Shown here piece by piece: positions 5,251 to 39,146 of a stretch of 64,000 nt of DNA (position 1 is the first letter of the stretch; every line of letters begins with the position of its first letter). The notes under the pieces are model-generated. The model made no database searches. It was not told the origin of the DNA and worked only from the letters and a program-made list of their open reading frames with translations. The DNA lies in NCBI GenBank assembly GCA_902541285.1, contig CACBQD010000002.1, forward strand, positions 1 through 64,000. The letters run 5' to 3'. Source of the stretch: an uncultured Pelagibacteraceae bacterium (lineage in GTDB: Bacteria; Pseudomonadota; Alphaproteobacteria; Pelagibacterales; Pelagibacteraceae). The position numbers were made by a program, and so were the translations under genes.

Positions 5251-6267
5251 ATGTATACCGAAATAAATACAAAATACAGAATATACATATCTAATTGGTT
5301 ATTATTTATGTTTTTCTTGGTTGCTATAATGATTGTTGTTGGGGGATTAACAAGACTTACAGATTCTGGGTTATCAATAACTGAATGGGAATTTTTTAAA
5401 GGTTTTTTCCCACCAATTAACAATGACTCTTGGATAGCATATTTCGAAGCGTATAAACAAATACCTGAATTTGAACTTCAAAATTATTCAATGAATTTAA
5501 GTGAATTTAAAATAATATTTTGGTGGGAATGGGCACACAGATTTTTAGGACGCATTATTGGTTTGACTTTTCTGATACCTTTAATTTTTTTTACTATCAA
5601 ATTAGGTTTGACAAAACTTTATAATTTTTACTTGATATTTTTTTTGATCTGTTTCCAAGGTTTTTTAGGTTGGTTCATGGTACAGAGTGGTCTTGTGAAT
5701 AATATAGATGTTAGTCACTTTAGGTTATCAATTCACCTTTTATTTGCATTTATTATTTTATCATTAATTTTTTGGAGTTATTTATGTTTAGTAAAATTTA
5801 ATAAAAAGCATAAAAAAATTAATAGTTATTTACCTGAATTTTTTTTACTATTAATTTTCTTACAAATTATTATTGGCGCATTCGTTTCGGGTATGGATGC
5901 AGGAAAAATATATAACTCTTGGCCTTTAATGGGTAATTCTTATTTTCCAGATGATAATAAGTTTATAAATTTATTTAAGTTATCTGCATTTAGTGATCCA
6001 TCACTAGTTCAGTATTTGCATCGAAATTTAGCATATTTAATATTTTTTATATATGTAGTAATTGCATATATAACTTATCGTAATAAATTCTTTTATTTAT
6101 TTAAATCTGTAATTATTTTAGGTTTAGTTATTTTATTGCAAATTATATTGGGAATTCTTACTGTTATGTCTGGTGCTAGCATTTTAACAGCATCTTTGCA
6201 CCAGTTTAGCTCAATATTATTGATTACCTCAACATTGTATTTTTTATTCAAGAATAGATTTAGTTGA
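5251..6267 (+). CDS. ctaA: Heme A synthase (COX15/CtaA type 2)
   Basis: Integral membrane enzyme that oxidises heme O to heme A for cytochrome aa3 oxidase. The 338-aa protein has about eight membrane helices. Typical blocks are GGLTRLTDSGLSITEW, WWEWAHRFLGR (heme-ligand His), SHFRLSIHLLFAF (second His), GAFVSGMDAGKIYNSWPLM, VQYLHRNLAY and a final LHQFSS His. The GxDAGxxYNxWPLM sequence marks the alphaproteobacterial/mitochondrial COX15 branch. It converges with the methyltransferase-like gene, the two stops being adjacent. Confidence 0.95.
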   Translation: MYTEINTKYRIYISNWLLFMFFLVAIMIVVGGLTRLTDSGLSITEWEFFKGFFPPINNDSWIAYFEAYKQIPEFELQNYSMNLSEFKIIFWWEWAHRFLGRIIGLTFLIPLIFFTIKLGLTKLYNFYLIFFLICFQGFLGWFMVQSGLVNNIDVSHFRLSIHLLFAFIILSLIFWSYLCLVKFNKKHKKINSYLPEFFLLLIFLQIIIGAFVSGMDAGKIYNSWPLMGNSYFPDDNKFINLFKLSAFSDPSLVQYLHRNLAYLIFFIYVVIAYITYRNKFFYLFKSVIILGLVILLQIILGILTVMSGASILTASLHQFSSILLITSTLYFLFKNRFS

Positions 6268-11842: not shown

Positions 11843-13132
11843 ATGACTAAAAAGCTTAATATAGCAATTGTTGGATTAGGGCAGATTGGTAATTATCTCT
11901 ATAATGAATTAAATACAAAAAAAAAAGATATTTTAAAAAAAACTGGAAAAATTATCTCTGTTTCTGCAATTTCAGCTAAAAATATTAATAAAAAAAGAAA
12001 ATTTAGAATTAATAAGAAAATATTTTATAAAGATCCCTTTAAAATTTTTAAAAATAATAAAATTGATATTTTAATTGAAGCCATTGGTCAATCTGATGGT
12101 ATATCAAAAAAAATTGTAGAATTTGCACTTAAAAATAAAATTCATGTTGTAACTCCTAATAAGGCATTAATTTCTAAACACGGTAATAACCTTTCTAAAC
12201 TTGCTGAAAAAAATAAAGTTAATTTAGAATTTGAAGCGTCAGTAGGTGGTGGAATTCCTGTATTAAGAACTATTAAGGAAGGGCTAGCAACTAATAAAAT
12301 AAGTAAAGTATATGGAATATTAAATGGTACTTGTAATTATATATTATCTGAAATGGAAGAAACTAAGTCTGGCTTTTCAACTGTATTAAAAAAAGCTCAA
12401 TTATTAGGTTATGCTGAACCAGGTAATCCAAAATTAGATTTAAATGGTTACGATGCTTTAGCTAAAGTTAAAATCCTTTCTGCTTTAGCATTTAATAATA
12501 AAGTTTCAAATTCAAAATGTTTAATGGAGGGCATTGAAAATATAGAATACAAGGATTTAGAAATTGCAAATCAATTAAATTATAAAATTAAACTATTGGG
12601 AATAACAGAAATTGTTAATAATAAATTATTTGAAAGAGTTCATCCGTGTTTAATTAAAAAAAATACCTACATTGCAAATGTTAATGGTGTTATGAATGCT
12701 GTTATAATTGAAGGTAATCCAGTAGGGGAGAGTGTTTTGCAAGGAGAAGGTGCTGGACCTGGTCCAACATCATCTGCTTTAATGTCTGATCTTTTGTCAA
12801 TTTTACGCGGAAATATCAAATACCCTTTTGGGATCTCGGACAATAAAAGAAAATCTCCTTCAATTTATAATACGGATAATTATTCCAATGCTTTGTACAT
12901 TAGGCTTGAAGTTAAGGATAAACCTGGTGTTCTATCTGAAATCACTAAAAAATTTGCAAAACATAAAATTTCTGTACAAAGACTAATACAAATACCAAAT
13001 AATAAAAATAAAACCGCTTCTATTGTAATTATAACTCACAAATCTTTAGAAAAGGATTATCAGAAATGTATTAAATCTTTTAAATCAAACAAAAATATTA
13101 TTAAGAACCCTATATTATTAAGACTTTTTTAA
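11843..13132 (+). CDS. hom: Homoserine dehydrogenase with ACT domain
   Basis: Reduces aspartate semialdehyde to homoserine on the route to threonine and methionine. N-terminal Rossmann motif IAIVGLGQIGNYLYNEL, then EASVGGGIPVLRTIKEGL, GILNGTCNYILSEME and GYAEPGNPKLDLNGYDALAK (catalytic region), and PVGESVLQGEGAGPGPTSSA. The last 80 residues (ALYIRLEVKDKPGVLSEITKKFAKHKISV) form an ACT domain, suggesting threonine feedback. An ATG at 11834 would overlap the previous gene by 8 bp; the ATG at 11843, one base after that stop, fits the usual N-terminus. In many alphaproteobacteria glpX follows hom; here 5.4 kb of other genes separate them and glpX is inverted. Confidence 0.95.
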   Translation: MTKKLNIAIVGLGQIGNYLYNELNTKKKDILKKTGKIISVSAISAKNINKKRKFRINKKIFYKDPFKIFKNNKIDILIEAIGQSDGISKKIVEFALKNKIHVVTPNKALISKHGNNLSKLAEKNKVNLEFEASVGGGIPVLRTIKEGLATNKISKVYGILNGTCNYILSEMEETKSGFSTVLKKAQLLGYAEPGNPKLDLNGYDALAKVKILSALAFNNKVSNSKCLMEGIENIEYKDLEIANQLNYKIKLLGITEIVNNKLFERVHPCLIKKNTYIANVNGVMNAVIIEGNPVGESVLQGEGAGPGPTSSALMSDLLSILRGNIKYPFGISDNKRKSPSIYNTDNYSNALYIRLEVKDKPGVLSEITKKFAKHKISVQRLIQIPNNKNKTASIVIITHKSLEKDYQKCIKSFKSNKNIIKNPILLRLF

Positions 13133-16235: not shown

Positions 16236-17189
16236 ATGAATGAACTGACAACAGACCTAAAATCGCTTCATCAGGCAACTTTAAATAACCTTAAAAGCTC
16301 AAAGGCAAATAATACAATAAGAGCTTACAAATCTGACTTTAAAGATTTTGGAGCTTTTTGCGCTAAGCATGGATTAGATTCATTACCAACAGAGCCAAAA
16401 ATAGTTTCCTTGTATCTTACCTATCTCTCTAAAAACTCAAAAATAAGCACTTTAAGACGAAGATTAGTATCAATAAGCATGGTTCATAAGCTTAGAGGGC
16501 ATTATCTAGACACAAAACATCCAATCATCGTTGAAAATTTAATGGGAATAAGAAGGGTCAAAGGAAGTATTCAGATAGGAAAAAAACCTTTATTAATCAA
16601 TCATTTAAAATCAATTATTAATGTAATAAATGAACAAAAAAATGAGGAAATAAAAAAACTTAGAGATAAATCAATAATATTAATTGGATTTGGAGGAGGC
16701 TTTAGAAGAACCGAGCTCATTTCAATTGATCATGAGGATTTAGAATTTGTTCCTGAAGGCCTAAAAATCAATATTAAAAGATCAAAAACTGATCAATTCG
16801 GAGAAGGAATGACTAAAGGACTACCCTACTTTGATAATGAAATTTATTGCCCTGTTACAAATCTAAAAAAATGGTTAGAAATTTCTAAAATTAATTCTGG
16901 ACCTATTTTTAGAAGATTTTCTAAAGGTTTATCATTAACAGATAAAAGATTAACTGACCAATCTGTAGTTTTGTTAATGAAAGAGTATTTAAAGTTAGCA
17001 GGTATCGAAAATAAAAATTTTGCAGGTCATAGTTTAAGGTCAGGTTTTGCAACAGTAGCTGCTGACTCAGGCGCTGATGAGCGAAGCATAATGGCTATGA
17101 CAGGTCATAAAACAACTCAAATGGTTAGAAGATATATTAGAGAGGCAAATATATTTAAAAATAATGCACTAAATAAAATTAAAATATAA
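16236..17189 (+). CDS. Tyrosine recombinase / phage-type integrase
   Basis: A 317-aa site-specific recombinase. The N-terminal core-binding domain includes NTIRAYKSDFKDFGAFCAKHG and a helical region to about residue 105. The catalytic domain has all signature residues: Arg in GFGGGFRRTELISI, Lys in IKRSKTDQFGEG, HxxR in GHSLRSGFATVAADSG, His in MTGHKTT and the nucleophile Tyr in MVRRYIREA. It therefore looks active. No other phage or transposition gene is next to it. XerC/D are longer-conserved housekeeping relatives, but the RSGFATVAADSGADE signature and variable surroundings favour an element-borne integrase. Confidence 0.88.
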   Translation: MNELTTDLKSLHQATLNNLKSSKANNTIRAYKSDFKDFGAFCAKHGLDSLPTEPKIVSLYLTYLSKNSKISTLRRRLVSISMVHKLRGHYLDTKHPIIVENLMGIRRVKGSIQIGKKPLLINHLKSIINVINEQKNEEIKKLRDKSIILIGFGGGFRRTELISIDHEDLEFVPEGLKINIKRSKTDQFGEGMTKGLPYFDNEIYCPVTNLKKWLEISKINSGPIFRRFSKGLSLTDKRLTDQSVVLLMKEYLKLAGIENKNFAGHSLRSGFATVAADSGADERSIMAMTGHKTTQMVRRYIREANIFKNNALNKIKI

Positions 17190-31563: not shown

Positions 31564-31602
31564 GGAGAGATGGCTGAGCGGTTGAAAGCACCGGTCTTGA
31601 AA
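31564..31602 (+). repeat. attL: 39-bp truncated copy of tRNA-Ser(TGA)
   Basis: Identical over 39 bp to 39057-39095, the 5' half of the intact tRNA-Ser. Identity starts exactly at the mature tRNA 5' end and stops in the anticodon loop just after the anticodon and the next base (CTTGAAA, then TTCC instead of ACCGG). No T-arm or acceptor 3' strand follows, so it is a broken tRNA and marks the left edge of the island. Confidence 0.92.
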
Positions 31603-31716
31603 TTCCAAGTAACTCATACCCCTTTACGACAATACACTTACAAATTAAGCCATTGCTTACTTTTTTAAATTTAGTTTTTCAAAATCTGCATTTTGATTAG
31701 GTCGCCTAAGCTAGAA

Positions 31717-31738
31717 ACTAGAACGAAACTACAACGAA
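31717..31738 (+). repeat. Tandem 11-bp repeat, left end of island
   Basis: Two head-to-tail units, ACTAGAACGAA (31717-31727) and ACTACAACGAA (31728-31738), preceded by a partial CTAGAA. They match the right-end pair at 38962-38983 in the same orientation, 18 of 22 positions. Possible integrase arm-type binding sites. Confidence 0.55.
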
Positions 31739-31743
31739 ATTGA

Positions 31744-32118
31744 TTAATTAATTTCAGCAACTTTTACATCACATAAATAGTGATTCAAAAATTTATCATT
31801 TATATAATCATACTTTGACATAGACATAATTGGATCTTTTTTTCCCTCAAATTCATTAATTTGAAAACCCAATTCATATTCAGGAAATCTAGCTGCAAAG
31901 AAGTCTTTTTTTATAATCAAATTCTCATTTGGAATTTCAACAAATAAATTTTTATTATGATCAAAATATTGAAATGATGTAACATCAAACTTATATTTAT
32001 GAATTACATATTCTTTATCTAAAAGGTTCTTCATATTTACACATGATATATCGACACCTTGATCAGAATAACTATTTAAAGGGAACAATATGATAAAAAA
32101 AATTATTAGTAATTTCAC
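31744..32118 (-). CDS. Hypothetical exported protein of the island
   Basis: A 124-aa protein with a signal peptide (LLIIFFIILFPLNSYSDQG, cleavage likely after SYS). The mature part has two cysteines (ISCVNM and YLCDVKV) that could form a disulfide, and mixed beta-like sequence (VIHKYKFDVTSFQYFD, ENLIIKKDFFAARFPEYELGF). No family recognised. The start is GTG at 32118. It is the last minus-strand gene of the island, 39 bp after the methyltransferase stop. A link to defence is only positional. Confidence 0.5.
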   Translation of the reverse strand: MKLLIIFFIILFPLNSYSDQGVDISCVNMKNLLDKEYVIHKYKFDVTSFQYFDHNKNLFVEIPNENLIIKKDFFAARFPEYELGFQINEFEGKKDPIMSMSKYDYINDKFLNHYLCDVKVAEIN

Positions 32119-32157
32119 TACTATTCTTGTTACAAATTAGGATGGTTATATTGGGAC

Positions 32158-35100
32158 TTAAATTTGTTTAAAAGAAGAATTATATAGTTTTTCAACATTT
32201 TCATCTAACTCAATTTGAATTAATTCCAATCCATTAAGATGATCTTGTTCAGAAATTAAATTTTCTTCAAATCTTAGTCTAATTTCAGATGCTTTTAAAA
32301 AAATATTGTTAAATTTTTTTAAAGTTTTTTCATTAGGTATTATAATCGGTACTTTTCTAATATCATTAATTTGAATATTAACTGACGAATTAAGAAAATT
32401 TCTTAGATAATTAAATATAAAATTTGAATTTAACATACAAACTAAATATTCATTAGATACTAATTTATTTTTTGAACTTAATGTCATACTCGCTACATCG
32501 TAAACAGACTCATTATTCATTTTACATTTTATATATTTAGAATTTGGATTTAAAATATTTGACCAACAAAAACCCTTAGTAAAATAAAATTCTCTATTTC
32601 TTATAACTGGCATTCCTTTACCAGGTTTTCCTGAATTTGAAATAAACCAATTAACAGTTTTTCTATCCCATTTGATAAAAAAAGGAGTTTTTCCAATCCA
32701 CTTATTACCATCCTTATCTCCTTTATCGTATTTTACATAAATCTTATTATTGTCATTAATACCATCTTCTTTATCTTTTTGTGAAATTTGATTGATATTC
32801 GCTACTTCATTTTTTTGTATAATCTTATAAAGAAATCCTTGACCAAATATATCTCTACCAAATTCCTTTTTTGCATTAGAGAATAAACTTCTGATTTCTT
32901 TTTCATCTAAAGTAAAAAAATTTTTTTTAAATTCAGATAAATCACTAAATTTGCGGAATTTTTTGTATAAATTAGATTTTTTATATTTATTAATAAAATC
33001 GAAATATTTTTCAGCTCTAATATTTTTTACTCTTTCAGATTCTTTTGTGTTATTGAGGACGCCTATAAAATCACCATTATTACCTGTTGCTAATCCTTGG
33101 CCACCAACTGATATTAATCCTAGCAAAGTAATATCACCAATTTTTAATTTATCATTATATTGCTTAAGTATTGAAATATTTTTTTCTATTGACGAACTTG
33201 TTTTAATCAAGTTCCAATAATTTTTATAATCTTTTGAAACAGGTTTGACTATTTTATCATTAATTAACAAATTTTCTTTAGATGGATTAAAAAAAACATT
33301 GTTAAATGTTTCTAAATAAAGATTTTGCTGAATACTAATACTATATTCATTAATATTTTGTTTAAAAACTTTTTTTAATATTTTTTCCCAACCTTTGATG
33401 TCCTTGTTGTCCTCAATAGAATTACTTTGTAAATTTCTTAAATCAATATAATCGATTTTATTATTATTGATAAATTTCCTTTTTTTAAAAATGAAAATGC
33501 AAGTATCAACTAATGCTTTAAAAGCTTTTGGTATAGTTACAAATTTATCAACTTCATATTTTAAAATTAAATCACGCATATTTTTTTTAGTTTGAAGTGT
33601 CATAAATGTATCTGAAGTTATGAAAGTGACTATCCCTTTATCTTTAACAATAAAACTAGCTAAAAATGTAAAATGATTATATAGATCATCTAAAAAAGAA
33701 TAGCTTTCTTTTAAATCGTTTTTCCAATCATATTTATTTACTTGTTTTATTCCGATATAAGGAGGATTTGAAACAACTATATCAAAGCCACCATTTAGAT
33801 AAAATACATCTGCAAAAAAAATCCCCCACGGAAAAAAATTTCTGTAAGTATTTATTGAAATTAAATTTTCAATTTCATTAAAATCGAGTTTTAACTTTGA
33901 ATCTGAATATGAATTTTCAATAATGCACTTGAATATTTCAATCATTAGAAATTCAATATCTTTTTTTAAAATTTTTTTTTTTGAATATGAAATGCTTTTA
34001 AAAAAATCACTTTGTTTAATTGCTAATTTTTTTATTAAATCTTCTAATAATGATTGTGTAGCAAACATTTCTAAAGAAGAATTTTTATCCTCAAAAATTT
34101 TTGATCCAAAATTAATTCCTTTGAATTTTTCTATTAGACTGTTACCCTGAATAATCTTAAAATCTAAATTTGGTAAAGCTTCAGTTTTTTCATAATCATT
34201 TTCTTCAACTATTAATGATAACCACAATCTTAATTTTGATATTTCGATAGCTGATTTATTAATATCGACTCCATATATAGAATTTTTTATACAATCTCTT
34301 TTAATATAGTAATTTGACGTCTTATATTTTTTATCTAAAAAATTTTTTAAAGATGACCTGATTCTCACAATAATGTTAATAAATGTAACTGCGAATGCAC
34401 CTGAACCTATAGCCGGATCACATATCTTAATTTCTGATAAAAACTTATCTAATTCTTTTGCATTTATCTTTATGTCAGGATTGATTTCAATTTGAAAATT
34501 TTCATTTTCAACTAAATCATTTATTTGAGCCTTAGAAATAATATTTTCAAATTTATTTTCTATCGATCGCTTTAGACTTTGTTCACACATGTATTTAACT
34601 ACTGATCTTGGTGTATAAAATGGTGCTTCTTCGTGTTTAATATTTTCTGGTAGGAGATTTTCAAATACTTTTCCTAACATTTCAGGATCCACAGCTAGAT
34701 CAACATCAACAGAAAGATTCTCGTCGACTGTAAAATTATAAAGATCAAAGATATCAAGTATTCCAGTATTTTGTTTATTAGAAAAAGTCTTATTAGGAAT
34801 ATTCAAAATTTCATTTTTCCAATCATATCCATCATAATATTCAAATAATCCACCGCCGATATAAGGAAGCTTGCAGGAAATTTTTTCATTATAAAAATTA
34901 TCATTTTTTTTATTTAATCCATCATAAAAAAAATGTTCTAGAAAATCGTTGAAGAAATTTTTATCTTTTTTTTTATACTCTTCAAATTTATTTCTCAAAA
35001 AAGATAAATCTCCCTTGCCGAAATTTTTATCCTTGGGTACTCCCAACCAACCTTTTTTCTGCAAAAAATAACAGAATGTTATTTGTCCAAGTAATTTTCT

Positions 35101-35718
35101 TGCAAAAAAATTTGTATCTAAATTTATCTTCCTCGCAAATCTAGAAAATATTTTATCTTCATCTAAATATTTTGATAAATATTTATAAAGAATTTTGTAA
35201 TCTAAAAAAAATTGTTCACTTACAACTTCAATATCAAATCTATTATAAAGATCATTAAAATTTAAAATTTTACCTTTCTTTATCAGTTGAGATGTTGGGG
35301 TATGTATCTTGCTATCTGGACCAAGTAAAAATGATAATCTCTTAGGATTTGAGTATTCTTTTTTTACTTTTTTGTCAGAAATCCATTCTATTGAGCTTGT
35401 TATAAACGAGAGTCTATAATTTAAATCCTTTTTAGAATAAGTTACTGCAAGAACATTTGAGAAGGAAAAAAAAGATAACAATCTAAATATTTCTTTTGAT
35501 ATTGTTAGTCTACTTCTTTCTGAAATATTGTGTTCAATTTCTATTACTTTAAGATCATTAAGTGAATTTACTTCAGCCAATAATATTGCTTTTTCAAAAA
35601 GGTCAAAACTTTTATCTATTTTTAAATCTTTATTTATATAACTGGTATCTTCGGGCAACAAATTTATCAAAAATTCAGCAAACTCTTCTGAATTGTACTT
35701 TTTTGAAAAATCAATCAT
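32158..35718 (-). CDS. Eco57I-type adenine-specific DNA methyltransferase with target-recognition region
   Basis: A large (about 1186 aa) N6-adenine DNA methyltransferase. SAM motif I is DPAIGSGAF near residue 424 and the catalytic motif IV is NPPYIGIKQ near residue 641. YTPRSVVKYMCEQSL upstream is the usual Eco57I/type I-like motif X region. The N-terminal 180 residues (VIEIEHNISERSRLTISKEIF; SNPKRLSFLLGPDSKIHTP) resemble those of other large Eco57I-family enzymes, and the last 250 residues (NRKTVNWFISNSGKPGKG ... VPIIIPNEKTL) look like a TaqI-type specificity domain. ATG at 35718 overlaps the helicase stop by 8 bp. With the helicase it forms a likely restriction-modification-like pair; target unknown. 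Confidence 0.88.
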   Translation of the reverse strand: MIDFSKKYNSEEFAEFLINLLPEDTSYINKDLKIDKSFDLFEKAILLAEVNSLNDLKVIEIEHNISERSRLTISKEIFRLLSFFSFSNVLAVTYSKKDLNYRLSFITSSIEWISDKKVKKEYSNPKRLSFLLGPDSKIHTPTSQLIKKGKILNFNDLYNRFDIEVVSEQFFLDYKILYKYLSKYLDEDKIFSRFARKINLDTNFFARKLLGQITFCYFLQKKGWLGVPKDKNFGKGDLSFLRNKFEEYKKKDKNFFNDFLEHFFYDGLNKKNDNFYNEKISCKLPYIGGGLFEYYDGYDWKNEILNIPNKTFSNKQNTGILDIFDLYNFTVDENLSVDVDLAVDPEMLGKVFENLLPENIKHEEAPFYTPRSVVKYMCEQSLKRSIENKFENIISKAQINDLVENENFQIEINPDIKINAKELDKFLSEIKICDPAIGSGAFAVTFINIIVRIRSSLKNFLDKKYKTSNYYIKRDCIKNSIYGVDINKSAIEISKLRLWLSLIVEENDYEKTEALPNLDFKIIQGNSLIEKFKGINFGSKIFEDKNSSLEMFATQSLLEDLIKKLAIKQSDFFKSISYSKKKILKKDIEFLMIEIFKCIIENSYSDSKLKLDFNEIENLISINTYRNFFPWGIFFADVFYLNGGFDIVVSNPPYIGIKQVNKYDWKNDLKESYSFLDDLYNHFTFLASFIVKDKGIVTFITSDTFMTLQTKKNMRDLILKYEVDKFVTIPKAFKALVDTCIFIFKKRKFINNNKIDYIDLRNLQSNSIEDNKDIKGWEKILKKVFKQNINEYSISIQQNLYLETFNNVFFNPSKENLLINDKIVKPVSKDYKNYWNLIKTSSSIEKNISILKQYNDKLKIGDITLLGLISVGGQGLATGNNGDFIGVLNNTKESERVKNIRAEKYFDFINKYKKSNLYKKFRKFSDLSEFKKNFFTLDEKEIRSLFSNAKKEFGRDIFGQGFLYKIIQKNEVANINQISQKDKEDGINDNNKIYVKYDKGDKDGNKWIGKTPFFIKWDRKTVNWFISNSGKPGKGMPVIRNREFYFTKGFCWSNILNPNSKYIKCKMNNESVYDVASMTLSSKNKLVSNEYLVCMLNSNFIFNYLRNFLNSSVNIQINDIRKVPIIIPNEKTLKKFNNIFLKASEIRLRFEENLISEQDHLNGLELIQIELDENVEKLYNSSFKQI

Positions 35719-38700
35719 TAACAATTTCTTCTGATATGATTAGTTTTTCTATTTGTTTATCGATACTCTTTGCCTTAGAAATTATCTTATTTAAATAATC
35801 AATTGGAATATCTGATATTAATTGCTTTAAATTATCCTCAAGATTCTTTTTAGAAATACCCCTGATTTGTTTTAAAAATCTAGGAGGTAATGCATCTAAT
35901 TCTTTGATGACAATCAATAAATCTTTCAAATATGCTGTATATTGAGCATTATTCATTCGCAATATTAATTCAATTTTTTGGATTGCATCTCTTTTTCCCT
36001 TATCCAATGCAGCAATAAACTGTTTTTTAAACAAACCTTTAATAGCTAATAAATATTGTTTTTCAAAATTTGATGTAACCTCTTTCGACCTTTCAGACTC
36101 ACTAGATTGAAATAACCTCAAATATTTGTCAGGTGTGAGAATTTTAAATTTATTTTTGATATCTAAAAATCTAAACATAGACTCATCACCTTTTTTAGCA
36201 TAGAGAAGAATTCCTGACCCTTCTCGAGTTTTAATTTTTCTATTAATTCTAATTCTTGGTGGAAGATCTCTAATTTGTTTTATTTTTTCGGGATTACTTT
36301 CTCTTAAATTATAAATGATATTTTCAAAATAAGATTCTGGGTTTTCTTCTTCATTCAAAATATCCTTATACTGATCTTTAAAAAAAGATTCTAAGTCTTC
36401 ATCTTTTGTTAGAACTTTAGTATCATCACCAAACAATGCTTTAAACATTGACATTTTTAGGCTAGTTATTTTCTTTGTTCTAACCTCTTTTTCACCAATT
36501 CCTGTTGGAAAAAAATTATAAATAAATAATTCATCAAAGATCTTTTTATTGATCCTATTAATTCTTCCAACTCTTTGAATCACTTTTGTTGGGTTATAAG
36601 GAATATCATAATTGATAATTGTCCCAGCTCTATTAAGATTATATCCCTCCGCTATCGCATCAGTAGCTACTAAAATTTTATAATTATTGTCCTTTTTATC
36701 TGAACTTGCATCAAACTCATTTTTTAAAATTTTTTTATTATCTTTTTTTGTTCCCTGTTTAGCTGTATATTTAAAAACCTTGTATTTATTCTTTAAAAGC
36801 TTTTCATATAAATAATCAGCTGTGTCAGCAAATTCAGTAAATATTAATATCTTTCTTTTATCAGGTCTTGAAAGTTCCATTTTTAATCTTTCCTCAAACT
36901 TGTCAAATTTAGGATCTTTAAAATTATTACTTAGAATTTTAGACCATCTTAATTTTAAATTTTGTAATACTGAAATATCATTTAATAAATCAGAAAAATA
37001 TTCTTCCCTTAATTCCTCTTTTTTAATATGCCAAAACCCTTTATCTTTTAATTTTTTAAATTCAGGAACAGTCTCAATTTTTTCAACATCTAAATTGTCA
37101 TCATCACCAATGACTATGCTTACGGGGTCTGGTAGATTTCCTTTTCTATATATTGGCACAATTTTATGTTTTTCATAATATTCTTTAATCATTATGTTTG
37201 AATTTATAATAGCGTCTAAAGTTTTTAAAAATGATGATGTGCAACTTTCAAATCTTCTTACTAATAACCTTTTAATAAAATCATCCATATTTTCTTGAGT
37301 TTTTCTTAAAAGCTCTTTTTCTACGCCCGCACGATCAGCTATTTCTAAAAAAAATTTTGCTTTAATATAAGTTGTTGGTTTATACCTTGCTCCTGTATAT
37401 TCTTTAATATCCGATTTTGGAGCTATTATGTTTAGAGTATCTATATACAATTCAGTTAATTCTCCTAAATTATAATCAATTAATCTTGGATCACTTACTT
37501 TTGGAAATTCAATCTTCTGCCTTTCTAAATCTTTTTTATATCTATCAATTCTTAATAAATCTAAGCGTGATCTTCGAATTACTATAGGAGACAACATGGT
37601 TCTCATCTGACCAGCAATTTTATCTCTTTTATCTTTAATTTGCTTAAAATCTGATGGCTTACCAGGATTAAGTTTTGATATAGAGTTATACTCTTTAATC
37701 AAATCTTTAAATTCATCTGATAAATTTTCAATTGTTTGCAATGATGACTTTGTTGGAATTTGAAAAAGTTTAATCATATTAAAAATATCTTGAGGTTTGT
37801 TATTAAAAGGAGTTGCTGAGAGAAGAATAACTTTATTTTTTGTACATAGTTTGTGCAAATCACCGTAATCAATTGTTAAGTCGTTTCTATAATAATGAGC
37901 TTCATCTAGAATAATTGTGTTATCCTCATTTGGTCTTTCAAATTTAAAAGTGTCTTGAATTTTTCCTCTAGAAATTACTTTTGCGGGTACACCAGCTATA
38001 TTCATATATTCTTCCCATTGATCTATTAAATGAGGTGGACAAACAACAATTGTGTTATTGGAAAGGTTTTTAGCTATAGCTGATGCAATAATGCTTTTTC
38101 CTAAACCCACCACATCAGCAATTATAATACCCTGATGTTTTTTGATTATATCTAATCCTTTTATAATGGCATCTTCTTGATATTTTACGTTAAAAAACTG
38201 ACCAGAAGAAAATTCTCTAGGAGTTAAAATTTTATTATCATCTTTATTTTGAAAATATTCATCTAAAACTTTTAAAAATAAATCATAAGGTTTTGGTGTT
38301 TTATTAATCCAAGTCTTTTTTATTACTTTATCCTCAAATTCTTTAAAATTTTCCTTGCTTACAATAGGTATACTTCTTGACCAACCTTCCTCAAATCTTT
38401 CAATATGAGCATCAAAATTTTCTTTATCATTAAATAGATAATTATTATTTTTTTGTAAATTATTTAAAAAACCTGATCTTGAAAAATTGCTAGATCCAGC
38501 AAGAACAGAACCTGGAGAAGAATTTTTATTTTTTTTTATATGATATTTAAAAATAAAAAACTTTGAATGATCATTTTTTTCTGGGTCACATCTTATTTCT
38601 AGGGTTCCATTTTTTATTTTTTCAACAAAAAGATTATGTGAATCAAGACGTATTTTCTGATCTAATATTTCCGTTGTATTTATATCATTAGAGAGATAAT

Positions 38701-38941
38701 TAAAATAACGCTCTTTAATAGCAGATGAGGATTGAGTAAGATCAAATATTTTTTGATCATAATTAATTCCAATTATTATCTTAATTTTTTTGTCTTTAAG
38801 AGATTTATAAATTTCATCGAAACCAGAAAACCAAAAATATCCTACTTGCACAAAAAATTCATTACAACTAGGTAGTATTTCTTTTTGAATTTGACTAACT
38901 GTTTTTTCTGTATTTCTTATTAGGGGCACATTATTAGTCAT
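35711..38941 (-). CDS. PLD-nuclease / SNF2-type helicase fusion
   Basis: A 1076-aa two-domain protein. Residues 1-200 form a phospholipase D-like nuclease domain with one HxK motif (DHSKFFIF, His125, Lys127) and the partner GSSNFSRSGF near residue 150. Residues 250-800 are a superfamily 2 helicase: motif I ADVVGLGKS (275-283), VVCPPHLIDQWEEY, motif II DEAH (346-349), SATPFNN (375), then ILIFTEFADTADYL and ATDAIAEGYNLNRAGTIINYDIPYNPTKVIQRVGRINR. The last 250 residues are helical and Lys-rich. It precedes the methyltransferase in the operon. TATAAT at 38955-38950 (minus strand) lies 8 bp before the ATG. A single HKD motif suggests a dimer as the active nuclease. Confidence 0.88.
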   Translation of the reverse strand: MTNNVPLIRNTEKTVSQIQKEILPSCNEFFVQVGYFWFSGFDEIYKSLKDKKIKIIIGINYDQKIFDLTQSSSAIKERYFNYLSNDINTTEILDQKIRLDSHNLFVEKIKNGTLEIRCDPEKNDHSKFFIFKYHIKKNKNSSPGSVLAGSSNFSRSGFLNNLQKNNNYLFNDKENFDAHIERFEEGWSRSIPIVSKENFKEFEDKVIKKTWINKTPKPYDLFLKVLDEYFQNKDDNKILTPREFSSGQFFNVKYQEDAIIKGLDIIKKHQGIIIADVVGLGKSIIASAIAKNLSNNTIVVCPPHLIDQWEEYMNIAGVPAKVISRGKIQDTFKFERPNEDNTIILDEAHYYRNDLTIDYGDLHKLCTKNKVILLSATPFNNKPQDIFNMIKLFQIPTKSSLQTIENLSDEFKDLIKEYNSISKLNPGKPSDFKQIKDKRDKIAGQMRTMLSPIVIRRSRLDLLRIDRYKKDLERQKIEFPKVSDPRLIDYNLGELTELYIDTLNIIAPKSDIKEYTGARYKPTTYIKAKFFLEIADRAGVEKELLRKTQENMDDFIKRLLVRRFESCTSSFLKTLDAIINSNIMIKEYYEKHKIVPIYRKGNLPDPVSIVIGDDDNLDVEKIETVPEFKKLKDKGFWHIKKEELREEYFSDLLNDISVLQNLKLRWSKILSNNFKDPKFDKFEERLKMELSRPDKRKILIFTEFADTADYLYEKLLKNKYKVFKYTAKQGTKKDNKKILKNEFDASSDKKDNNYKILVATDAIAEGYNLNRAGTIINYDIPYNPTKVIQRVGRINRINKKIFDELFIYNFFPTGIGEKEVRTKKITSLKMSMFKALFGDDTKVLTKDEDLESFFKDQYKDILNEEENPESYFENIIYNLRESNPEKIKQIRDLPPRIRINRKIKTREGSGILLYAKKGDESMFRFLDIKNKFKILTPDKYLRLFQSSESERSKEVTSNFEKQYLLAIKGLFKKQFIAALDKGKRDAIQKIELILRMNNAQYTAYLKDLLIVIKELDALPPRFLKQIRGISKKNLEDNLKQLISDIPIDYLNKIISKAKSIDKQIEKLIISEEIVND

Positions 38942-38961
38942 AGATATAAATTATATGAATA

Positions 38962-38983
38962 TCTAGAACGAGACTAGAACTAA
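38962..38983 (+). repeat. Tandem 11-bp repeat, right end of island
   Basis: TCTAGAACGAG (38962-38972) and ACTAGAACTAA (38973-38983), related unit by unit to the left-end pair in the same orientation. They sit 20-40 bp upstream of the helicase ATG, near its -35 region, so an operator role is also possible. Confidence 0.55.
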
Positions 38984-39016
38984 AGTTAAAATTCTAAAAA
39001 TTTTTTGTTCTCTTTT

Positions 39017-39045
39017 TTGTTGAATTTTTAAATTATACTTATAAA
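39017..39045 (+). promoter_or_regulatory. tRNA-Ser promoter, island-borne
   Basis: TTGTTG (39017-39022), 17-bp spacer, TATAAA (39040-39045). A start about 7 bases downstream falls a few bases before the mature tRNA 5' end at 39057. It lies inside the island, so the element supplies transcription of the restored tRNA. Confidence 0.5.
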
Positions 39046-39056
39046 ACCTTGCTCAC

Positions 39057-39146
39057 GGAGAGATGGCTGAGCGGTTGAAAGCACCGGTCTTGAAAACCGG
39101 CAAAGGGGCAACTCTTTCCTGGGTTCGAATCCCAGTCTCTCCGCCA
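39057..39146 (+). tRNA. tRNA-Ser (anticodon TGA), island attachment site
   Basis: Full class II tRNA with long variable arm: acceptor GGAGAGA pairs with TCTCTCC, anticodon stem CCGGT/ACCGG with loop CTTGAAA (anticodon TGA), variable arm with AAAGG...CTTT, T-arm CTGGG-TTCGAAT-CCCAG, discriminator G and encoded CCA at 39144-39146. Bases 39057-39095 are the right copy of the island's 39-bp repeat. Confidence 0.97.

Follow-up and report, generated by a model that had tools for sequence, protein, structure and literature searches.

In SauUSI, a chain that joins a phospholipase D (PLD) nuclease to an SF2 motor can translocate and, in an ATP-dependent manner, cut DNA on meeting a roadblock (PMC7913695). 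CglI, a complex of PLD and SF2 components, is likewise an ATP-dependent restriction enzyme (PMC5737866), and type ISP enzymes consist of a nuclease, a motor, a gamma-class methyltransferase (MTase) and a target recognition domain (TRD) (PMC3874165). BR2 (BREX-Related type 2) comprises an N-terminal HKD nuclease, a Swi2/Snf2 helicase and an N6-MTase, and has been proposed to be restriction-modification (RM)-like (PMC12839542). Among SAR11 bacteria, DefenseFinder detected anti-phage systems in 19/172 genomes, all of them RM (PMC11066056). Here we describe a locus whose components and general kind are already known, and for whose exact two-gene composition we found no name; the open-access literature searched, with REBASE and DefenseFinder outside its scope, held no paper naming the exact pair.

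The window analyzed here is a stretch of 64,000 nucleotides (contig CACBQD010000002.1, assembly GCA_902541285.1) from an AT-rich, SAR11-type Pelagibacteraceae genome of 1.16 Mb. As an earlier note on this DNA had proposed, two genes are present on the minus strand:

35711..38941, minus strand, gene of the PLD-SNF2 protein, 1076 aa, start 38941, stop 35711
Its residues about 1-200, PLD domain with HxK at 125-127 and GSSN at 149-152
Its residues about 231-851, SNF2 motor with Walker A DVVGLGK at 276-282, DEAH at 346-349 and QRxGRxxR at 789-796
Its residues 852-1076, C-terminal helical/beta region
32158..35718, minus strand, gene of a predicted Eco57I-family gamma-class N6-adenine MTase, 1186 aa from ATG 35718
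Its residues 1-135, N-terminal alpha-beta domain
Its residues about 160-735, MTase core with DPAxGSG at 434-440 and NPPY at 651-654
Its residues about 760-1125, TRD, with C-terminal helices after it

The fusion of PLD and SNF2 domains claimed in that note is borne out by Pfam matches of the 1076-aa protein to Helicase_C (7.6e-20), SNF2 (6e-13) and, slightly short of the cut-off, PLDc_2 (4.8e-5); the closest PADLOC model is 'HKD+Snf2' (C3a139, 120 bits). The description of the nuclease as a single HKD is right insofar as HxK and GSxN are each kept in 60/60 relatives, but the site lacks the D of the classical HKD. Across these 60 helicases, HxK, GSxN, G157, Walker A, motif II DE and motif VI (GR..R) are invariant or nearly so. 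After GSxN, the window copy has Q163 (window ~38455) where 59/60 relatives have E, a change owing to which the nuclease of this copy may be weakened. A 2-residue insertion adjoins Q163. In the AlphaFold model (mean pLDDT 81), the SNF2 motor groups with Chd1/ISWI-class remodellers (Z up to 19.3, 412 residues), and Foldseek retrieves RapA, SNF2 remodellers and SauUSI (7clg, 3.4e-12). The PLD-SNF2 protein itself seems to lack a domain that would read DNA sequence. Viral contigs yielded no relatives of the helicase.

For the second gene, an alternative start at TTG 35724 would give 1188 aa. The ATG is the likelier start because the 8-bp overlap with the helicase gene that it creates recurs in other SAR11 copies (L003/L064, L021, L097, L098, L100), and both the overlap and an adenine MTase of about 1186 aa agree with the earlier description. 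Pfam returned Eco57I (5e-25) and MmeI_Mtase and no other family, and the best PADLOC match was REase_MTase_IIG (320 bits, 6e-96). DPAxGSG precedes NPPY, and both motifs are invariant over 45 MTases. A PDB sequence search gave no match, and structural relatives came from a fold search only, in which the AlphaFold model (mean pLDDT 70; TRD region low, mostly 25-65) grouped with CamA, BrxX, MmeI, LlaGI and LlaBIII. The alignments covered 592 residues for BrxX (Z 27.2), 550 for MmeI (Z 26.4), 506 for LlaGI (Z 23.6) and 525 for LlaBIII (Z 23.1), the matched parts of the last two being their MTase+TRD halves. Those to BrxX, MmeI and LlaGI start only at residue ~163-172 of the model. The N-terminal domain of about 130 residues that the earlier note had missed (residues 1-135) is modelled as alpha-beta-beta-beta-alpha-beta at the position of the MmeI nuclease, and an E-x-K occurs in 10/45 relatives, the window copy having E-I-E. 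We infer a nuclease-like domain with catalysis lost in most members, its assignment to PD-(D/E)XK being made from secondary-structure order and position only.

Close counterparts are the type ISP enzymes LlaGI and LlaBIII, with which the pair shares a nuclease, an SF2/SNF2 motor, a gamma-MTase and a C-terminal TRD in the same order. The sequence of gamma-MTase and then TRD is apparent from motif order, the hypervariable TRD and the LlaGI/LlaBIII alignment. However, a type ISP enzyme is one polypeptide, whereas the pair consists of two ORFs with an 8-bp overlap; the type ISP nuclease is an Mrr-like PD-(D/E/Q)xK (PD-QxK in LlaGI/LlaBIII), in contrast to the PLD HxK/GSxN; and the MTase of the pair has its N-terminal alpha-beta domain in addition. 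By analogy, the pair would work like a type ISP enzyme without being a member, since it has two chains and no Mrr. The earlier reading of these modules as a type ISP set divided over two chains, with PLD for Mrr, agrees with the LlaGI/LlaBIII alignments and the SauUSI match. Like the type IV enzyme SauUSI, the pair has an N-terminal PLD nuclease fused to an SF2 motor, but SauUSI lacks an MTase and uses a C-terminal domain of its own to read modified cytosine, while recognition in the pair apparently resides in the MTase. CglI and NgoAVII are also ATP-dependent RM systems with a PLD nuclease and an SF2 motor in an RM locus, although in these two the PLD nuclease and the motor reside on different subunits, with a B3 recognition domain on the PLD chain. 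BrxX/PglX and the MmeI-type IIG/IIL enzymes share the fold of the MTase core and TRD with the pair, whose N-terminal domain, in contrast, has no conserved E-x-K and whose nuclease-motor is on a separate chain.

Membership of three multi-gene systems was considered and rejected. The pair resembles BR2 only in the HKD-SNF2 chain: BR2 requires DUF3780, an MTase with DUF1156 and an ATPase with DUF499, and none of the three was found here. DUF499 was found neither in the genome (89% complete) nor among recurrent neighbors, the Pfam scan of the MTase gave no DUF1156, and the third ORF of the insert described below (124 aa) has no Pfam match. With class 1 DISARM and ARMADA, the pair shares an SNF2 helicase gene followed by a PglX-like MTase. 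DISARM, however, has the YprA-like helicase DrmA and DrmB, both missing here: neither lies in the insert or among recurrent neighbors, and MZB/DUF1998 (DrmB) is absent genome-wide. The helicase scored 134.7 bits against the NCBIfam DrmD equivalog cut-off of 610, and the DrmMI match of the MTase was weaker than its match to the type IIG family, so the likeness to drmD-drmMI drawn in the earlier note is not supported past superfamily level. Its interpretation is supported in part, for the type ISP module set and for a pair occurring alone, and lacks support for kinship with DISARM beyond that level. For BREX, the MTase reached 134.3 of the 500 bits of the PglX cut-off (NCBIfam), and the three ORFs of the insert have no PglZ or BrxC domains.

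The pair is a conserved unit across many phyla. A profile built from six homologues and searched against one genome per species found at least 576 relatives, of which 80 were kept, in Bacteroidota, Planctomycetota, Cloacimonadota, Spirochaetota, Bacillota, Patescibacteria, Alphaproteobacteria and others; single-cell Pelagibacteraceae contigs were among the loci with homologues. Together with SAR11 and plasmid loci, those with room for a partner made up 83 scored loci, at 54 of which an MTase starts -40 to +100 bp from the helicase stop; an MTase lies within 2.5 kb of the helicase at 69/83, and upstream of it, in reversed order, at 7. Among strong homologues with enough downstream sequence, the MTase follows within 2.5 kb in 52/56, mostly overlapping or abutting. 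This pairing is far beyond chance. Helicase and MTase are separate ORFs in the relatives examined. An extra gene, some of Schlafen/AlbA type, lies between the two at L015, L028, L082 and L094, and extra subunits may matter at loci with an intervening gene or reversed order.

The neighbors recurring in a family scan of 85 proteins from large adjoining ORFs (Schlafen/AlbA-type regulators, AAA/DUF4143, SMC-like and Abi-type proteins, GmrSD, integrases) are the usual defense-island genes. DrmA, DrmB, DUF499, PglZ and BrxC were not among the families matched twice or more in these 85 proteins, nor in ten of the largest neighbors scanned singly. As the earlier note stated, drmA/drmB are lacking; in the relatives, too, the pair occurs alone, and neither these nor BREX core genes regularly adjoin it. 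In SAR11 genomes with both flanks, only housekeeping genes surround the pair, its sites are unrelated to one another, and no other defense gene adjoins it.

The specificity region of the MTase, as claimed earlier, is real, and it is hypervariable, diverging in a way that the note had not noticed. Among Bacteroidales pairs with helicases 71-85% identical, the MTase core and N-terminus are 68-82% identical and the TRDs 14-29%. Helicase, core and TRD identities are 81, 82 and 14% for L012/L040, 85, 78 and 19% for L028/L042, and 79, 74 and 17% for L045/L046. Over 36 pairs with helicase identity of at least 60%, the means were 65.5 for the core, 62.5 for the N-terminus and 21.6 for the TRD, the last level with the value of 20 that distant pairs show as background. 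One close pair, L047/L075, has kept its TRD, as expected of near-identical copies. As read from these sequences, TRD-only divergence is the signature of RM specificity switching. Since the restriction chain is unchanged when the target changes, the MTase appears to be the source of target recognition. Identity of the helicase correlated with that of the MTase N-terminus at r=0.94, the core at 0.79 and the TRD at 0.10 (39 loci), and in a Mantel test of helicase against core the largest of 500 permutations reached 0.26 (observed 0.79). Given that the N-terminal correlation is the highest of the three regions, it suggests that the helicase docks via this domain. The two genes are co-inherited and share a switching specificity, as is general for two-gene RM systems.

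We therefore consider it likely that the pair is a two-gene ATP-dependent RM system whose PLD motor resembles SauUSI and which functions as a type ISP enzyme split in two. With its C-terminal TRD, the MTase would recognize a DNA site, short and probably asymmetric, and it would N6-methylate an adenine in the DNA of the host. The restriction chain, PLD-SNF2, would dock on the MTase, probably via the degenerate PD-(D/E)XK-like domain at the N-terminus of the latter. From an unmethylated site, the SNF2 motor would translocate along DNA, driven by ATP, and a stall or collision of motors would lead the PLD domains to cut, on the pattern of SauUSI and the type ISP enzymes; translocation and PLD cutting are proposed because of the SauUSI and CglI precedents. 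The comparison itself establishes the conserved operon with its intact catalytic motifs, the hypervariability confined to the TRD, the co-variation of helicase and MTase N-terminus and the mobile carriage described next; complex formation, the methylated base and site, translocation, cleavage and phage protection we infer.

The pair is carried by a mobile insert integrated in tRNA-Ser, a setting also missed in the earlier note:

31564..31602, plus strand, left 39-bp direct repeat, the 5' half of tRNA-Ser to the anticodon loop, at the chromosomal junction
31603..39056, insert of 7454 bp, absent from the near-identical relative G011 (empty site L112)
31717..31731, plus strand, arm-type-like repeat ACTAGAACGAAACTA, near the left end
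31744..32118, minus strand, 124-aa ORF inside the insert, with a signal-like N-terminus
38962..38976, plus strand, matching arm-type-like repeat TCTAGAACGAGACTA, near the right end
39057-39095, plus strand, right repeat copy, the first 39 bp of tRNA-Ser(TGA), a perfect match to the left copy
39057..39146, plus strand, complete tRNA-Ser(TGA), its upstream sequence element-derived

The flanks in G011 are 95-97% identical to the window and joined without 31603-39056, and the site is likewise empty in more distant relatives (L113-L115). The insert holds three ORFs only, helicase, MTase and the 124-aa ORF, with no integrase among them; the 124-aa ORF had no family match and is probably cargo. The arm-type-like repeats gave 2 matches against 0.15 expected. 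At 38997-39056, the native region upstream of tRNA-Ser is replaced by the insert. Presumably, the conserved right end of the element supplies a new tRNA promoter; a promoter scan of this end gave no signal beyond chance level. The genome encodes a single Phage_integrase-family protein (16236-17189, plus strand). It falls far short of the XerC/XerD cut-offs and occurs in 18/24 same-genus relatives and 0/16 from another family, and this tyrosine recombinase is a possible candidate for a resident helper of the element.

RM systems can behave as selfish addiction modules, and the pair is among the few genes of a 7.45-kb mobile insert, as would be expected if an RM-like module mainly stabilized its own insert and did not protect against phage. 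We regard this as unlikely: such carriage is compatible with defense as well, and TRD diversification points to selection on specificity. Quite unlikely, in our view, is BREX/DISARM-like exclusion, in which the MTase would mark self and the SNF2-PLD protein would block phage replication with host or accessory factors instead of RM-like cutting. The fold of the full-length MTase is nearest BrxX/PglX, and SNF2 helicase-PglX pairs belong to DISARM and ARMADA (PMC12458937); yet the DrmA, DUF499, BrxC and PglZ families are not recurrent neighbors, SAR11 copies stand alone, and invariance of the PLD HxK and GSxN (60/60) is difficult to reconcile with a process that needs no cleavage. It is very unlikely that the MTase itself, as a type IIG/IIL enzyme, has an active nuclease at its N-terminus and the helicase as an accessory, as its top PADLOC match (REase_MTase_IIG, 6e-96) and the alpha-beta-beta-beta-alpha-beta domain at the MmeI nuclease position might suggest, given that E-x-K is present in just 10/45 relatives and is E-I-E in the window, that this domain co-varies with the helicase and is not free to vary, and that the invariant site is that of the PLD.

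Returning to the two-gene ATP-dependent RM system, we extend it tentatively, with somewhat less than even confidence, to a widespread, unnamed two-chain class in which the restriction chain would read no sequence and dock on the dead nuclease domain of the MTase, one exchangeable TRD serving both activities, and which in SAR11 would travel as a mini-element that targets tRNA genes, lacks an integrase and is possibly mobilized by the resident chromosomal tyrosine recombinase. Such a class would give RM a compact architecture that crosses phyla and is intermediate to type I/ISP, the type IV PLD enzymes and BREX; its adaptor would be a degenerate nuclease domain, and its recognition domains would be exchanged in nature. 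In SAR11, abundant and streamlined ocean bacteria, defense would be gained and lost via very small elements in a tRNA gene, and questions on the SAR11-phage arms race would be open to direct genome comparison.

At L021, the pair lies beside the same tRNA-Ser, and in other SAR11 copies the adjoining gene is tRNA-Thr, -Val or -Met. Direct repeats surround three SAR11 copies (44 bp in G040, 25 bp at tRNA-Thr in G267, 61 bp in G385); none were found around L106, L107, L108 and L021, where the ends may fall beyond the stretch examined. The tRNA-Thr element of G267 (L105) has a perfect 28-bp internal repeat (5600-5627 and 13000-13027), ~100 bp inside both element ends, like recombinase arm sites. 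Near-identical small secreted proteins (MKRVLLIILLHLSLFF...) are encoded beside the pair at L105 (12423-12989) and L109 (13494-14054), at different tRNA genes.

The 5' half of tRNA-Ser(TGA) is an insertion hotspot in Pelagibacter: the 39-bp core occurs in 2-3 copies in about 20/399 Pelagibacter genomes, mostly bracketing 0.25-7.5 kb of cargo. At ten hotspot loci (L117-L126), elements of 1.4-4.5 kb have a right end 86-93% identical to that of the window, compared to 29% for the sequence native to the empty site. These ten elements showed no integrase, and two of them (L117, L120) carry other RM genes, namely an MmeI-like single-chain enzyme (L117, 660-3404, minus strand) and a type III Mod/Res-like pair (L120, 711-4698, plus strand). 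A 945-aa ORF in the L122 element has, by eye, a caspase-like HG...C region near its C-terminus.
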